In this document: in pieces, positions 11,947 to 19,980 of the stretch | How the letters are laid out: every line of letters starts with the position of its first letter | Numbering within the stretch: the stretch's first letter is position 1 | From: Lentilactobacillus dabitei | GTDB taxonomy: Bacteria; Bacillota; Bacilli; Lactobacillales; Lactobacillaceae | Direction of reading: 5' to 3' | Assembly (NCBI RefSeq): GCF_019061365.1 | Contig: NZ_JAHPPD010000001.1 | Span: forward strand, 1-64,000 | Length of the DNA stretch: 64,000 nucleotides | Position numbers and translations under genes: made by a program | The notes under the pieces: model-generated | Told to the model about the DNA's origin: nothing | Databases searched by the model: none | Seen by the model: only the letters and a program-made list of their open reading frames with translations

Positions 11947-12641
11947 CAGGCAATCACTTCCTTTATCATTTGAACTTCAGCTCTGATAGCTGCCATTTTA
12001 GGGATATCTTCATGAGATGCTTTTTTCATATTGTTAAGGACTCTTTCCAGTAGTTTAATTTCACTCTGCCATTTTGCCACAAATATCGGCGATTTTTCCT
12101 TCATTAAGAATGGTCCAAACTTAAGTTCTCTGTCGGTATAGGCTAACTTGGTTGGCGCCTTGACTGCTGTGATAATCTCGTAAATATGATCATCCTCAGA
12201 TAAAATTTGTTCAGCCTTAATCTGGTACCGATGAGTCATCAACCAAGTTCGAACGACCCCTTCGCCAACATTCGGTTGGAGAATCAATTTTTCTTGGCCA
12301 GTCAACTTATCGTACCCGTTTTCTAAAATGTGGCTAATCAGATTGCCACCCATGCCGGCAATCGTAATCGCATCAATTTTGTCTGCAGGCTGGATGGCAT
12401 CAAGTCCATCAGCCAATCGCGGCTGCAAGACGGATAATAAGCCTTCCTTTTTAATTTCTGAAATCGCGTTTGAGAGCGGTCCTTTCGCCACTTCACCAAC
12501 AACCCCATAGGAAATAATATCGTTTTTGGCGAGGTGGATTGGTAAATACGCATGATCAGATCCAATATCAGCTAATCTGCTCCCGGGGTCGACGTGGTCA
12601 CTAACCGTTTGTAAGCGTTTCGATAAATGCGTGCTATTCAT
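11946..12641 (-). CDS. trmK: tRNA (adenine-22-N1)-methyltransferase
   Basis: A 231-residue class I SAM-dependent methyltransferase that makes m1A at position 22 of tRNA in Bacillus relatives. The SAM motif is LADIGSDHAYLPI (near residues 23-35), followed by GEVAKGPLSNA and the catalytic-region ITIAGMGGNLI. The C-terminal third is helical and charged, as in the family. The ATG follows TAGGAG. It lies downstream of rpoD beyond a terminator and directly before the nif3-like gene, the usual trmK-yqfO pairing. Confidence 0.93.
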   Translation of the reverse strand: MNSTHLSKRLQTVSDHVDPGSRLADIGSDHAYLPIHLAKNDIISYGVVGEVAKGPLSNAISEIKKEGLLSVLQPRLADGLDAIQPADKIDAITIAGMGGNLISHILENGYDKLTGQEKLILQPNVGEGVVRTWLMTHRYQIKAEQILSEDDHIYEIITAVKAPTKLAYTDRELKFGPFLMKEKSPIFVAKWQSEIKLLERVLNNMKKASHEDIPKMAAIRAEVQMIKEVIA

Positions 12642-12690
12642 AAATAACTCCTAAATTAGTTTATAGATTCATTATAATTTATAACCTGAC

Positions 12691-12741
12691 AAAAAAACAG
12701 GAGCCCATAAACAAAATTTGTCACTTTGTTATGAACGCCTG
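12691..12741 (-). terminator. Intrinsic terminator of the dnaG-rpoD unit
   Basis: On the minus strand a long imperfect stem runs from CAGGCGTTCATAACAAA to its partner ending in CTCCTG, followed by seven T. It lies 19 bases after the rpoD stop and separates rpoD from trmK. Confidence 0.85.
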
Positions 12742-12759
12742 CTGTTCTGTTGAATCAGA

Positions 12760-13941
12760 TTATTCCAAAAAATCTTTTAATTGCTTGCTACGTGATGGAT
12801 GACGGAGCTTCCGTAATGCTTTAGCTTCGATTTGACGAATCCGCTCACGGGTTACACCAAACACTTTTCCAACTTCTTCAAGGGTCCGAGTTCGACCGTC
12901 ATCAAGGCCGAAACGCAACCGTAAAACATTTTCTTCACGATCGGTTAACGTATCAAGAACACTTTCCAGCTGTTCCTTTAACAACTCATAAGCTGCATGG
13001 TCGGCTGGTGAAGTTGCATCTTGATCTTCGATGAAGTCACCCAAGTGAGAGTCATCCTCTTCACCAATTGGGGTTTCAAGCGAAACTGGTTCTTGGGCAA
13101 TCTTCAGAATTTCTCGAACCTTCTCTGTTGGCATGTCCATCTCAGCACCAATTTCTTCAGGCAATGGCTCACGGCCCAAGTCTTGAAGTAATTGCCGTTG
13201 GATTCGGATCAATTTGTTGATGGTTTCAACCATGTGAACTGGAATCCGAATTGTTCGAGCCTGGTCAGCAATGGCCCGGGTGATGGCTTGACGAATCCAC
13301 CAAGTGGCATAAGTTGAGAATTTGAATCCCTTCCGATAATCAAACTTCTCAACGGCCTTCATTAAGCCCATGTTACCTTCTTGAATCAAATCAAGGAACT
13401 GCATCCCCCGACCCACATAACGTTTGGCAATCGAAACCACCAACCGCAAGTTGGCTTCAGCTAGTTCCTGCTTAGCTTCTTCATCGCCATCTTCAATTCG
13501 TTTAGCAAGTGAAATTTCTTCGTCGGCACTTAAAAGTGATACCCGGCCAATCTCTTTAAGGTACATTCTAACCGGATCATTGATCTTAACACCAGTGGGC
13601 GCAGAAACATCAGAAAGTTCCTTCTTAGTAACCTTCTTAGCAGCGCCAATCGCACGTGGATCTGGCTCGCCATTTTCATCAACGACACTAATTCCTGAGT
13701 CTTCGATTTCTTCAAGGAGTCCTTCCATATCCTTTTCGTTCAAAGAATATGGTTCTTGGATTTTCTTCTGGAGTTCATCATAGGTAATATGACCAATTTG
13801 CTTATTCGCTTTAACAATTGCGTCAAATTCCTTTTTATACGGCTTAGCAGCTTTCTTTGCGGCCTTTGTCTTAGTTGATGCAGCCTTTTTGCTTGTAGTT
13901 GCCTTTGTTACCTTTACCTTGCTTGTTTTTTTGTTAGCCAT
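12760..13941 (-). CDS. rpoD: RNA polymerase primary sigma factor
   Basis: The vegetative sigma factor (SigA) that recognises the TTGACA/TATAAT promoters visible in this window. The 393-residue protein starts with a Lys/Ala-rich basic segment (1-35), then region 1.2 ([11 protein letters not shown]), region 2 with the core-binding and melting sequences ([31 protein letters not shown]), region 3, and region 4 with the -35 helix-turn-helix ([20 protein letters not shown]). The ATG at 13941 follows AGGAGG by seven bases; a TTG one codon before is also in frame. It sits 17 bases after dnaG, the conserved dnaG-sigA arrangement. Confidence 0.98.
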
Positions 13942-13958
13942 CAAAATGCCTCCTGAAG

Positions 13959-15785
13959 TTAGACTTGTTGCTTCGTTCTCTTTTGTTGCTCAAGTTTGAT
14001 AATTTCAATCATTAATTCTTTTTGTTTGTCAACATCGCCAATCTTCGTTGCTTGTTTCAATTCGGTTCGCCTTTGCTTCAACTTGGCGTCTACGGGTGCC
14101 TGATGCATCAACACATTGACACAGTTATCAATTTCTTGATCGCTGGGTTGATCTGGTAATTCAAGCATTTCAATATCAATTAACAAGCTTTGCAGTGAAT
14201 TTTCCGTGATGAGATTACTAAACGCAGCCACATTATAATCGCTGTATTTGGTGAAATAGCCCTCTGCTAATAGATACAACATTTGAAATTTTTCATCAAC
14301 AAACGCAAATCCGGCGATATTACTGACTTTCAACCAAACATCATGATAATGGAGCATTCGATTAAGCAGTTGCATTTCTGCAACCTGCACTTTAGTTAAA
14401 TGCTTTGTCTGCCTTGGCCGAATGGGGGGATTAGGCTGTTGATACTGATTAGTCGAAACCGATGGCGTTCGCTTTAATAACGGCATCAACTGCTGTTGCA
14501 ACAACTTCTTCTCCACCGAAAATTCATCCGCCAACCGATTCAGATAAAGATCCCTCGAAATGCTGGAGTCCACTTTGCTAATTAATTTGACTGCTTCAGC
14601 GATATAGTTGCTCTGGTCAACTTCAGAATTCAAATTGTATTGCTTTTTCAAGTAGCTCAATTCAAATTCAATGGGTGCCTGGGCGTGAGTGAGCAACTCC
14701 TTAAAGGGATCGGCGCCTTTACTGCGAATGAATTCGTCGGGGTCCATACCATCGGGAACCGTGACAACCTTGATACCCATACTGTTATCATGCTCACCGA
14801 ATTCATCAATGGCGCGTTTAATGGCTTTTTGTCCAGGAATATCACCATCGTAGCAAATAATAACATCCCGCGTAATCCGTTTGATATCATAAATTTGCTG
14901 TTCAGTAAGACTAGTGCCCATCGAGGCAATCCCAGACTTAATGCCAGCTTGATACGCTGTAATCACATCCATAAAGCCTTCAAACAACAAGGCAGGTTGC
15001 TGGCTTCGAATGTTTGCCCGCGCTAAATCCAGGTTAAAGAGGATTTTGCGTTTATTAAACGTTTCGGTTTCCGGACTATTCAGGTACTTTGGCATATCTG
15101 GATTCTTCGTCAGCATCCGGCCGGAAAAGCCAACCGTTTGCCCGCCACCATTTCGAATCGGATACATCACCCGATCAACAAAACGATCGCGCAAGTTACC
15201 ATCCTGATCCTCAGAAAACAGCCCCGTTTTGCGTAGCAGCTGATAATCAACCTTGCGTTCATCGAAAAATGGCTTCAACAATCGTTGGACAGGCGCATAT
15301 CCAAGCTTGTAGGTGGCAATCGTTTCATCAGTAATTCCCCGTTTGTGGAGATAATCCAACGCCGGTTGTCCCATCTTGGTGTTTGTCAAAATATGATTAT
15401 ATAACTTGACTGTCTGCTCATGGAGATCAATCAATTGCTTTTGTTGTGAATTCTCATTAGCAGATGGGTCATTCGAATGATCCGCAAAATACTTCTTATC
15501 TAAAGGAATATTTTCGAGTTGGGCAACTTCATTAACGGCTTCTGGGAATGAAATATTCTTTAACTCCATTAAGAACTTGAATACATTTCCGCCGCGGCCA
15601 CAACTGAAACAATGAAAAATCTGCTTATCCTCCGAAACTGAAAAAGACGGGGTCCGCTCTTCATGGAACGGACAGAGGCCAAATAAATTCTTGCCAGACT
15701 GTTTCAATTGAACGTACTGAGAAACAACATCAACTATGTTGACCTGTGATCTAACTTGCTCAATCACATCTTCTGGGATCTTGAT
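13959..15785 (-). CDS. dnaG: DNA primase, apparently starting at AUC
   Basis: Makes RNA primers for DNA replication. Visible are the N-terminal CHC2 zinc finger ([11 protein letters not shown] and CFSCGRGG), the TOPRIM core ([20 protein letters not shown]) and a helicase-binding C-terminal region. The start is unusual. The first ordinary start codon in frame is a GTG at 15839, but that GTG is the 3' arm of the intrinsic terminator behind glyS and has no ribosome binding site. A strong GGGAGG lies at 15795-15800, nine bases before an ATC at 15785, giving a protein beginning (M)[10 protein letters not shown] as expected for the family. No ATG, GTG or TTG lies between. An AUC start (608 residues) or a sequencing error at this codon are the two readings. 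Confidence 0.93.
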
Positions 15786-15827
15786 AGTCTTTCGCCTCCC
15801 ATCTTTAAAAGCCGTATAAATACCGGC

Positions 15828-15852
15828 AAAAAGCCGCACCCAAGAGTGCGAC
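15828..15852 (-). terminator. Intrinsic terminator between glyS and dnaG
   Basis: On the minus strand GTCGCAC (15846-15852) pairs with GTGCGGC (15833-15839) around a six-base loop and is followed by TTTTT. It lies about 70 bases after the glyS stop and only some 30 bases before the dnaG ribosome binding site, so dnaG/rpoD transcripts either read through it or start very close by. A TTGACA hexamer (15894-15899) lies upstream, but no well-spaced -10 is evident. Confidence 0.8.
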
Positions 15853-15920
15853 TCATTGTCTTAGCGATACGTGATTAAATACTATCATACAATGTCAATT
15901 AGTACAATCATAAGCACTCA

Positions 15921-18002
15921 TTATCCCTTGACAACCAATTTATCCAAATCACCTAAGAACATAATCATGTTGGCAATCATTGTCAACTGACGAAGCCGGT
16001 TATTCCTCAGCTTTTCATCCTTAGCCATGATCATTGTAGCGTCAAAATAAGTGTTAATTTCATCTTTAAGCCCTGCTAGCCGTTTAAAATCGGCTTCAGC
16101 AGTCAAGTCTGTGTAACCATCTGCAGCCTTGGCCACAGCATCATGAAGTGACTTTTCGGAATCATTCTCAAACAAACTTGGGTCAACCGTCAAATCATCA
16201 CTGCCAAATGAACCCTTTTTAGCGATCCGTTGAACCCGGGTCAGTGACTCAATGACCTCCTTGAAGTCACGATCATCACTGTGATTTTGCAAGGCCTTGC
16301 CACTAGCAATGTTAAAGACAATGTTGGTATGTGATCCAGAGGTAACGGCATCTGAAATATCATAACGAATACCTAAGTCATCAAGGAACTGTTTGATTCG
16401 ATCCTTAATAAAGTCATCAATCGCTGAAACCCGTCCGCTCATATCCAAATCAGGGGCAACGTTTTGCTGTTTCTGCAACTCAATCACTTTGTTCAACGTT
16501 GAAGTTAAATCAAATTTCCAGTTCTTGTTAGAAACGATTCGAACAATCCCAGTTGCTTGACGACGTAAGGCATAGGGATCGTTTGAGCCACTTGGGATCA
16601 TCCCGGCGGCAAAGAACGTTAAAATGCTATCCAATTTATCGGCAATCGACAAAATTGAACCAATATCTGATTGAGGTAAATCGCCGTTTGCTGAGATTGG
16701 CATGTAGTGTTCGGAAATTGCTTTGGCAACCGCCTCGGATTCGCCATTTAGCAACGCATATTTTTCACCCATTACACCTTGGAGTTCGGCAAACTCGCCA
16801 ACCATGCCGGTAACTAAATCAAATTTGTAAATTTCAGCTGCCCGCTTCAAATCTTTGAGTTGGTCGTCAGAAAGGCTGAATAATTGGCCAAAGTAATGTG
16901 AAATAACTTGCACTCGCTGCATTTTGTCATACATTGTCGAAATTTTGTCATGGAAGCTGACCTTTTTCAGACGTTCCACATAATCAGCAATTGACTTCTT
17001 TTGATCTTCTTGATAGAAGAACATGGCATCTTCCAGACGGGCAGTTAAAACTTTTTCATTTCCTTGAACCACGTTCTGCAAGTCATAATCATTCCCGTTT
17101 CGGACGGAAACAAAATGAGGAAGTAATTTGCCTTCTTGATTAGTTACATAGAAGAAACGCTGATGATCTTTCATCGAGGTAATCAGGACTTCATCTGGGA
17201 TTTTGAGGTATTTGTCATCAAACTTACCCGCAAATGCGGTTGGCCATTCAACCAGGTTATTAACCTCTTCCAATAAATCAGGATCCAGATTGATCTTCCA
17301 GTTGTTGTCTTGGGCAATCTTCTGAATCTGCTTGGTGATCATTTCTTTTCGTTTATCAGCATCGGCAACGACAAATTGTTCAGTCAACTTTTCTTCGTAT
17401 TCATCTGCGTTTACCAATTCAACATCTTTACCAAGGAAGCGATGTCCAGAAGTAATGCGATCAGTTGTCACGTCAAGGATCTTAAAGGGAACAACCTGAT
17501 CGTTAAGTAAGGCGACCAGCCATTTGATCGGTCGGACATATTCAAATGAATAGTTCCCCCACTTCATCATCGTTGGGAAAGTCATTGCAGTAATAACGTC
17601 TTTCATCCCGGTTAAAATCTCGTCGACAGGTTTACCAGCAATGTGTTTTTCAACGAAAACGTATTGTGTCCCTTTAACATCCTTAAACGTGATGTCATCC
17701 GTGGTAGCGCCTTGCCCTCTTGAGAAACCAATCGCAGCCTTCGTCCAGTTACCGTCAGCATCTTGAGCAATCTTTTTTGCGGGTCCTTTGACGGATTTAT
17801 CAATATCTGGCTGCTTATCAGCTAACTCCGTTATATAAAGAGCCAACCGCCGAGGGGTGCTAAAAGTCTTAATGTTGGCAAATGTAATTCGTTGTGCTTT
17901 AAGAAAATCGGTTGCCCGTTTTTTGAGTTGATTAATGCTTGGCGTCACAACATGGGCAGGGATTTCTTCCAAACCGATTTCCAGTAAGAAATTGTTAGCC
18001 AT
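15921..18002 (-). CDS. glyS: Glycyl-tRNA synthetase beta subunit
   Basis: Large subunit of the bacterial heterotetrameric (alpha2beta2) glycyl-tRNA synthetase, needed for tRNA binding and charging. The 693 residues match the usual length (about 690). The N-terminus [19 protein letters not shown] is typical, an HD-like region lies centrally (AEIYKFDLVTGMVGEFAELQ), and the C-terminus resembles a DALR anticodon-binding domain. It begins within the glyQ stop codon (TAATG, one-base overlap), so the subunits are translationally coupled, and the pair is controlled by the T-box leader ahead of glyQ. Confidence 0.97.
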   Translation of the reverse strand: MANNFLLEIGLEEIPAHVVTPSINQLKKRATDFLKAQRITFANIKTFSTPRRLALYITELADKQPDIDKSVKGPAKKIAQDADGNWTKAAIGFSRGQGATTDDITFKDVKGTQYVFVEKHIAGKPVDEILTGMKDVITAMTFPTMMKWGNYSFEYVRPIKWLVALLNDQVVPFKILDVTTDRITSGHRFLGKDVELVNADEYEEKLTEQFVVADADKRKEMITKQIQKIAQDNNWKINLDPDLLEEVNNLVEWPTAFAGKFDDKYLKIPDEVLITSMKDHQRFFYVTNQEGKLLPHFVSVRNGNDYDLQNVVQGNEKVLTARLEDAMFFYQEDQKKSIADYVERLKKVSFHDKISTMYDKMQRVQVISHYFGQLFSLSDDQLKDLKRAAEIYKFDLVTGMVGEFAELQGVMGEKYALLNGESEAVAKAISEHYMPISANGDLPQSDIGSILSIADKLDSILTFFAAGMIPSGSNDPYALRRQATGIVRIVSNKNWKFDLTSTLNKVIELQKQQNVAPDLDMSGRVSAIDDFIKDRIKQFLDDLGIRYDISDAVTSGSHTNIVFNIASGKALQNHSDDRDFKEVIESLTRVQRIAKKGSFGSDDLTVDPSLFENDSEKSLHDAVAKAADGYTDLTAEADFKRLAGLKDEINTYFDATMIMAKDEKLRNNRLRQLTMIANMIMFLGDLDKLVVKG

Positions 18003-18928
18003 TATTTTTCCTCCGTTTCGTCTTTGAGTAGTTCTTGACGTTTCTTCTCGTCTTTAATCAACGGGAATCCTCGACGTTTTCTAGCGGCAACAAATTCCTT
18101 GGCGACCCGCCGGGCTAAATTGCGAATTCGGGATAGATAACCAGCTCGTTCGGTAACTGACACAGCGCCGCGAGCATCCAAAAGATTAAACGTATGACTG
18201 CACTTCAAAATGTAGTCATAAGCAGGATGAACAAGGCTTTGATCCAATAAGCGCTTGGCTTCATGTTCATACTCATTGAAATGCTTCAACAGCATTTCTT
18301 GGTCACTAACCTCAAAGCTGTACTTGGAATGTTCATATTCAGGTTCTTTGAAGATATCACCGTAAAGAACATCGTCTGACCATTCCAAATCAAATACAGA
18401 GTTGACGTTTTGAATGTACGACGAGAGCCGCTCCAAACCATAAGTAATTTCAGATGCAACGGGATCCATTTCGAGGCCCCCAACGATTTGGAAATATGTA
18501 AACTGGGTAATTTCCATTCCGTCTAGCCAAACTTCCCAACCAACACCGGCACATCCCATCGAAGGGTTTTCCCAGTTATCTTCAACAAAACGGATGTCAT
18601 GTTCCAAGGGATTAATACCAAGTTCCTTCAAACTGTTCAGATAAAGTTCCTGAATATTTTCTGGTGAAGGCTTCATAATAACTTGAAACTGATGATGTTG
18701 ATACAGCCGGTTCGGGTTTTCACCATAACGGCCATCAGCTGGTCGTCTGGAAGGTTCAACATAAGCGGCATTCCATGGCTCTGGGCCAATTGCCCGCAAG
18801 AACGTGTAAGGACTCATTGTTCCAGCCCCTTTTTCGGTATCGTATGCCTGCATTAACATACATCCTTGAGCTGCCCAATACTTTTGCAGCCGCAGGATAA
18901 TTTCTTGAACTGATAGTTTTTCAGTCAT
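18002..18928 (-). CDS. glyQ: Glycyl-tRNA synthetase alpha subunit
   Basis: Catalytic class II subunit of the alpha2beta2 glycyl-tRNA synthetase. Signature segments include [40 protein letters not shown] and [20 protein letters not shown]. The ATG at 18928, preceded by AGGAGG at the proper distance, gives 308 residues beginning [10 protein letters not shown], the normal size. A longer frame reaching upstream runs into the T-box terminator and is not coding. First gene of the glyQ-glyS pair. Confidence 0.97.
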
Positions 18929-18952
18929 CAATATTCCTCCTAGTTTAATCAC

Positions 18953-19176
18953 AAAAAAATCCCTATGTTTAAAAGCTATACTTAGCCACTTAAACATAGG
19001 GACGAGTCAATCGCGGTTCCACCCTACTTCTGGTAAATTATTACCAGCACTTAATTGTTCAGCTCAAAAAGCGCCATCTAATTGATCAGTTTGAACTGGC
19101 TCTCACTTACCCAGTCTCGTTGGACAAAATCATCAATCAGTTTCTTTTCTCATTGCCGAATTATTTATTTCAGAAA
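18953..19176 (-). promoter_or_regulatory. T-box riboswitch leader of glyQS, specifier GGC
   Basis: The minus strand carries the T-box core AGGGTGGAACCGCG (plus positions 19012-19025), followed by a strong terminator whose 12-base arms (CCCTATGTTTAA and its complement) end in seven T at 18953-18959. Uncharged tRNA-Gly pairing should favour the antiterminator. The 3' side of stem I reads ATGGCGCTTTTTGAG; the Gly codon GGC is at 19073-19075. The same frame in the hisS-aspS leader reads GTGACACTTTTTGAG, supporting this as the specifier position. Confidence 0.93.
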
Positions 19177-19178
19177 TA

Positions 19179-19207
19179 ATCATAGTTGACATTAAAACGA
19201 TTGTCAA
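19179..19207 (-). promoter_or_regulatory. Promoter of glyQS
   Basis: On the minus strand TTGACA (19202-19207) and TATGAT (19179-19184) are separated by exactly 17 bases, just downstream of the recO stop. Transcription would start near 19172, at the beginning of the T-box leader. Confidence 0.85.
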
Positions 19208-19218
19208 CGCAGCTTACA

Positions 19219-19980
19219 TCAAATTTTGAATTTACCCAGTTGATCAATGAATCGTTTGCTTTTGGGAACCACCCCGACGCTTCGCTGATAGATTTGGTCT
19301 AAAACTTGTCGTAATAACTTTTTGGTTTTGTCACCTACTGCAATGTGCGCTAATTTTGATAAATCCACAACCGAAAATAACCTCAAGTAATAAATGGTTC
19401 TCGCGTCCAGATGCATTCGGTAAGGATCCTTGTCCCAGTGATTTTTGCATAGCAAGCCACCATACGCCTCGGAATAGTCAAACGGCAAATCTCGCCGATG
19501 ACAGATCACACAGTCAACCCAATTAGGGGCAACCCCAAAGGCTTGAAGCAATTGAACTTCAAAGATATTTGTGATAATTTCTGCGTCGAAGCCTTCATCA
19601 ATCAGTTTCAACCCCATTAACAACTTGTCGTACCAAACAGCTATGGGCTCACCGTCGTGAAATGCCAGATCGATTAATGACATTGTGTAAGTTGCATAAG
19701 CATTCTTAGTGATATCTTCAGCGATCTGATTAAAGTGTTCAACATGTTTGCCGTCATTGATGTATGACAAGCCATCATCTTTGATGTCGCCACCGTACAA
19801 GCCATATGTAAACGGTAAAATCGCCGCCCGCATTTTGAAGCGAGGTCGCTTGGCACCACGGACCAAAAACATTTTCTTCCCAAATTCACGGGTCAAAAAT
19901 TTCACCAAAAGGTCATGTTCACGGTAGGGCTTGGTGTAAAGTAAAATTCCATTAAAATCTGTGATTTGGCCTTTGGACAT
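19219..19980 (-). CDS. recO: DNA repair protein RecO
   Basis: Recombination mediator that with RecR loads RecA at gaps (RecFOR pathway). The 253 residues show the N-terminal OB fold (ITDFNGILLYTKPYREHDLLV), a central helical part and a zinc-binding-type segment CVICHRRDLPF ... GGLLCKNHW in the C-terminal half. The ATG is preceded by GAGGTGAT. It lies 305 bases downstream of era, a conserved neighbour in Firmicutes, and just before the glyQS promoter. Confidence 0.95.
   Translation of the reverse strand: MSKGQITDFNGILLYTKPYREHDLLVKFLTREFGKKMFLVRGAKRPRFKMRAAILPFTYGLYGGDIKDDGLSYINDGKHVEHFNQIAEDITKNAYATYTMSLIDLAFHDGEPIAVWYDKLLMGLKLIDEGFDAEIITNIFEVQLLQAFGVAPNWVDCVICHRRDLPFDYSEAYGGLLCKNHWDKDPYRMHLDARTIYYLRLFSVVDLSKLAHIAVGDKTKKLLRQVLDQIYQRSVGVVPKSKRFIDQLGKFKI

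Follow-up and report, generated by a model that had tools for sequence, protein, structure and literature searches.

We report that dnaG, the gene for DNA primase, is probably translated from an AUC codon in Lentilactobacillus dabitei, and that AUC or AUU appears to have replaced AUG, GUG or UUG at the dnaG start several times within the Lactobacillaceae and then to have stayed. The gene lies in the window, that is, the whole stretch of 64,000 nucleotides that was analyzed (positions 1 to 64,000 of contig NZ_JAHPPD010000001.1). Its predicted start is the AUC at 15785-15783 on the minus strand, set by the Shine-Dalgarno (SD) sequence GGGAGG. Judging from comparison of sequences, we assign a probability of roughly 0.8 to this reading, in which the codon is not a chance leftover, starts of this type having been gained repeatedly and kept. 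AUC and AUU are among the rarest of bacterial start codons, and to our knowledge very few natural AUC starts have been documented in bacteria. As a kind, AUH starts (AUU, AUC or AUA at the start position) are already known, for example in infC, pcnB and ccpN.

The gene order on the minus strand of the window is glyQ-glyS-hairpin-dnaG-rpoD, with glyS at 15921-18002, dnaG, as read from AUC, at 13959-15785, and rpoD, the next gene, at 12760-13941 with a canonical ATG start. The identity of dnaG is given by a match to TIGR01391 (475.6 bits, versus a cut-off of 283.6). The SD sequence at 15800-15795, recognized from the letters and by its score, is separated from the ATC by the nine-base spacer CGAAAGACT, and the codons that follow, AAG ATC CCA GAA GAT GTG, encode the KIPEDV start of primase. 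The first-pass annotation, made from the letters of the window, had stated that no ATG, GTG or TTG occurs from GGGAGG to the IPED codons, that ATC lies nine bases past GGGAGG, and that the nearest upstream GTG (15839) belongs to a hairpin, GTCGCAC/GTGCGGC, with TTTTT behind it. A renewed reading of the minus strand bears out all three statements, the first for in-frame codons, and places the GTG (15839-15837) in the 3' arm of the hairpin. An out-of-frame ATG overlaps the SD sequence (aaagATGGGAGG), and the first in-frame canonical codon 3' of the ATC is a GTG at codon 7 (counting ATC as codon 1), past the conserved IPED. The candidate start, placed by its position, by relatives and by SD score, lies behind a normally spaced SD sequence. 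That no usable canonical start competes with it holds for the window species by SD score only, since its upstream frame has no stop until past the hairpin GTG, and holds strictly at seven other loci, described below.

To determine how widespread such starts are, the dnaG start was read in 209 Lactobacillaceae genomes, comprising 24 of Lentilactobacillus (genus code g1), 30 of g12, 8 of g14, 28 of g18, 111 of other genera, and 8 more. The 111 derive from 120 fetched loci among the matches listed, nine of which belong to g12, g14 or g18. Starts were chosen by a home-made SD-spacing score with a required lead of 2, a value of our own choice. By contrast, a looser rule accepting any canonical codon within eight codons labeled all 120 loci canonical, masking the AUC cases. 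We also scanned 397 family genomes for an SD sequence followed by ATH-AAR-ATH-CCN-GA. The five matches were the four known Lentilactobacillus cases and one in G266 (L112), which was dropped because it lies in the interior of another reading frame and is not dnaG. This pattern is blind to AUC-GCN starts, and therefore the census was done by reading the letters.

An AUH codon was the best fit in 25 of the 209 genomes (4 in g1, 8 in g12, 2 in g14 and 11 in g18), of which 24 were assigned by score and one (L260, where AUC scores 9.7 and ATG 8.0, a lead under the threshold) by clade. The codon is AUC in 23 of these genomes, AUU in two and AUA in none. Over 161 loci, the dnaG starts are ATG (66), TTG (46), AUH (25), GTG (23) and ACG (1). 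At L004, L265, L267, L303, L304, L306 and L309, the stretch from an in-frame stop upstream to the IP motif contains no ATG, GTG or TTG, and at all of these except L004, no canonical codon occurs for 15 codons downstream either. At these seven loci, AUC is the only possible candidate start before the conserved protein. Elsewhere, canonical codons are present as poorer alternatives: an ATG three codons 3' of the ATC and far from the SD sequence in g12a (5 species), an ATG two codons 5' of the AUH and against the SD sequence in g18b (6 species), and, in the SD region itself, a TTG at L302 and a GTG in g14 (L292/L294). In 72 genomes read from other families of the order (of 103 outside the family), no AUH was found at dnaG. 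All of 71 named loci from outside Lentilactobacillus have canonical dnaG starts; some of them may be identical to genomes in the coded set, and so they were not added to the counts.

To assess the evolution of the codon, 105 DnaG proteins were placed on a tree by quick search under LG+G4, with the start codon excluded from the data. The fewest start-codon changes on this tree number seven. The AUH genes form seven groups among relatives with ATG, GTG or TTG, each group being a clade or a single species, and in the six groups with two to six species (SH-aLRT 98-100), the AUH start is shared among relatives. Because two of the g12 groups descend from poorly supported parent nodes (54 and 70), the true origins may number fewer than seven. 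AUC (AUC or AUU in g1) was retained despite fourfold identities that fall within groups to 0.37 in g1, 0.34 in g12a, 0.50 in g14, 0.22 in g18a, 0.37 in g18b and 0.79 in g12b. In g18a, the AUC persists among proteins that are 64-84% identical, with fourfold identity at 0.22-0.41. For a rough contrast only, since other genomes and methods were used there, passages of PMC5622118 give switches of ancestral starts to AUU at 1 of 61,358 AUG and 1 of 5,080 GUG codons, and leave AUC unmentioned.

Two other genes served as controls. At rpoD, directly downstream of dnaG, 155 of 161 starts are canonical with an SD sequence, six are unscored (L020, L071, L272, L285, L286 and L302; the layout around rpoD differs at L071), and none is AUH. 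An initial rpoD run had flagged 19 of the 161, and in 18 of these the dnaG stop is followed by an SD-like run and an ATG that the mapped frame does not include. Of the 24 Lentilactobacillus genomes (L113-L136), 23 have an infC that reads ATA GCN after GGAGG, as do 18 of 20 others (L404-L423); the exceptions, L126, L416 and L423, were unmatched by the motifs used and were left out. AUH starts therefore seem to be at home in these cells, though none was seen at rpoD.

From the sequence comparisons, we infer that ribosomes initiate at the dnaG AUC. The fMet-tRNA would read this codon with a third-base mismatch, and the weak initiation that results would lower the yield of primase and keep the enzyme scarce. 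The cell would benefit from a low and constant supply of primase, even with rpoD in one gene row with dnaG. IF3 rejects near-cognate start codons, so primase synthesis might track the amount of IF3 relative to 30S subunits if IF3 modulates initiation at this AUC. That the AUC is a selected control of this kind, tying the priming of replication to the translation machinery and invented repeatedly beside an AUA-started infC, is a tentative proposal that we regard as rather unlikely to be correct. At slightly less than even odds, the AUC could instead be used but merely tolerated as nearly neutral, with the product needed in small amounts and no regulation by IF3. The dnaG starts of the family are often weak anyway, as the TTG and GTG counts among the 161 loci attest. 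However, AUC has outlasted strong fourfold divergence in five of the six multispecies groups, though one base change would restore AUG, and its repeated origin in dnaG has no counterpart seen in rpoD.

Published measurements indicate how weak such a start can be. An excerpt of an in vitro study has IF3 favoring strong third-base pairs, with weak pairs yielding very little (PMC10158994). In Bacillus subtilis, according to a passage of PMC10303841, a rny-lacZ fusion with an AUC start retained regulation at much lower expression. In Staphylococcus aureus grown in poor medium, AUU and AUA starts yielded roughly 10% of the AUG level, and ccpN reached up to 30% in rich medium (passages of PMC13009471). 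Low, possibly IF3-sensitive synthesis of primase seems to us the likeliest purpose of the dnaG AUC.

Initiation elsewhere in dnaG was weighed against the AUC. A start at an internal canonical codon, such as the GTG at codon 7 in the window or the ATG at codon 4 in g12a, would give a shorter DnaG; we consider this improbable. Such codons do exist in g1 (GTG) and in g12a (ATG), but the g12a ATG has no SD sequence at the right distance (score 5-8, versus 9.7-13.5 for the AUH), the IP motif ahead of the g1 GTG is conserved, and the six loci that lack any canonical codon for 15 codons offer no such start. Moreover, pairwise differences over codons 2-10 number 7 in g1, 15 in g12a and 4 in g14, none of them nonsynonymous, so coding constraint appears to extend back to near the AUH codon in these groups. 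The g12b pair is identical over these codons. The differences in g18a (20 nonsynonymous versus 19 synonymous) and g18b (5 versus 11) speak against the AUC reading.

It is very unlikely that translation begins at the upstream GTG (15839-15837) within the hairpin, which would add an N-terminal extension to DnaG. In the window, as in L003 and L005, an open frame runs from this GTG. Its SD score is poor, however (5.6-7.0, versus 13.7 for the AUH), the GTG is buried in a strong stem, single-base indels distinguish the spacers of the four AUH species of the genus, and the GTG is not common to the other genera. Decisively for one species, L004 (G008) has an in-frame TAA seven codons before the ATC, between hairpin and ATC, which separates the GTG from dnaG and excludes it, together with the other upstream starts, in L004. 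An extension of the RLFAGIYTAF type, which the first-pass annotation had named as the product that would speak against the AUC, is thus impossible there.

Within Lentilactobacillus itself, four of the 24 genomes have AUH at the dnaG start (ATC in G000, ATT in G017, ATC in G008 and ATT in G005), and the remaining 20 have canonical starts, with TTG at exactly the same codon in five of them (L012-L016). The four species make up one supported clade (SH-aLRT 100), all of it carrying ATC or ATT, and these two codons are exchanged even between species whose DnaG proteins are 99% identical (L002 and L003). A record of L. rapi (L028), which matches G017, also has ATT. A sequencing or assembly error, conceivable because the genome is a draft in 224 contigs, is refuted, since the relatives in which the earlier note had advised looking for ATG, namely the three other species of the clade, have ATT, ATC and ATT at this codon, and 21 more AUH genomes occur in three other genus codes. 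On the minus strand, in the part around window positions 15765-15805, the DNA AAGATCCCAGAAGATGTGATT is nearly invariant across L002-L011.

The region between glyS and dnaG has features of its own. The terminator-like hairpin spans 15828-15852, with its arms GTCGCAC/GTGCGGC at 15852-15833 and T5 behind them. It folds at -16 kcal/mol (z -4.7 versus 200 shuffles), and its pattern has a single match in the window, compared with 0 of 100 shuffles. Hairpins of like form stand before dnaG in 19 of the 24 Lentilactobacillus genomes. The hairpin was not among the hits of a generic terminator scan of the region. Farther upstream lies a hypothetical promoter-like site, TTGTAC-N17-TAGTAT (15876-15904), suggested by conserved placement: at 13 of 24 loci of the genus (L002-L009 and L012-L016), TTGTNN-N17-TANTAT is found between -125 and -129, ahead of the hairpin. 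A generic promoter scan of the region gave 5 sites versus 5.6 expected, and this site was not among them. Together, the hairpin and the promoter-like site make an attenuated dnaG leader possible, and the hairpin may also lower the amount of dnaG mRNA. Neither of two folds spanning the dnaG start has a structure of note (z 0.30 and -1.16). In the latter, a 111-nucleotide fold, UGGGA of the SD sequence pairs with UCCCA of dnaG codons 3-4, but the fold as a whole is not unusual. Rfam gave no matches in 12500-19500.

Several known systems resemble this one in part. The E. coli pcnB gene, for a low-abundance enzyme that is held low by a near-cognate start, begins with AUU; it is a different gene with a near-cognate start like that of the AUH dnaG genes, and we know of no repeated origin of its AUU. 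Like dnaG, infC has an AUH codon behind a strong SD sequence, and its GGAGG...ATA GCN resembles the ...ATC GCN of dnaG in g12, g14 and g18. However, infC has AUA in these genomes, whereas dnaG has AUC or AUU, and dnaG is no translation gene, whereas infC is autoregulated by IF3 in E. coli, as stated in a passage of PMC13009471. The same passages describe conserved AUU and AUA starts in S. aureus, including cvfC1 (AUU) and ccpN (AUA), that carry an extended SD sequence and limit expression, as demonstrated by Ribo-Ret and reporters. These differ from the dnaG case in genes and codons, and the terms AUC and dnaG are absent from the main text of that study. An ATC start was predicted for L12ae of Staphylothermus marinus for want of a valid start codon (PMC2678158, in excerpt), but this is one archaeal gene in one genome, unlike the recurrent dnaG AUC.

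The gene order also invites comparison with E. coli, where a terminator lies upstream of dnaG, as the terminator-like hairpin does in the window. The first-pass annotation had drawn this parallel to the rpsU-dnaG-rpoD operon, and it stands with respect to the hairpin (in 19 of 24 genomes, as noted) and to rpoD, which follows dnaG in both (macromolecular synthesis operon; gene order from an excerpt of PMC2824700). The parallel does not extend to the preceding gene, which is glyS, glyQ-glyS taking the place of rpsU, or to the AUC start.

We found no report of an AUC or AUU start for dnaG in the open-access literature (titles and beginnings of abstracts), most subscription papers being outside this scope. 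Recurrence of AUC at an essential replication gene, which is not visible from the window sequence alone, suggests that very weak initiation of primase synthesis has been selected, and perhaps that translation factors and replication are directly connected. If the assignment is true, dnaG of these species would be given a wrong start or an extension by gene finders that avoid AUH codons, with consequences for cloning, proteomics and start-codon statistics.

Some other dnaG loci have unusual features. At L301 (G200, g18; identical with L236), the codon behind GGGAGGTGACCGTC is ACG instead of the ATG of its relatives; this is a possible ACG start and was kept out of the AUH count. One stop lies within the dnaG match at L022, L023 and L024 (G018, G019 and G010), and also in G353, G204 and G477, and the dnaG matches of G399 are split into three pieces. 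Finally, dnaG at L149, L153-L155 and L161 reads GGAGAT ATG CTG ACA/ATA ATG ATT, with the first ATG nearly on the SD sequence, which leaves the CTG and the second ATG as candidate starts.
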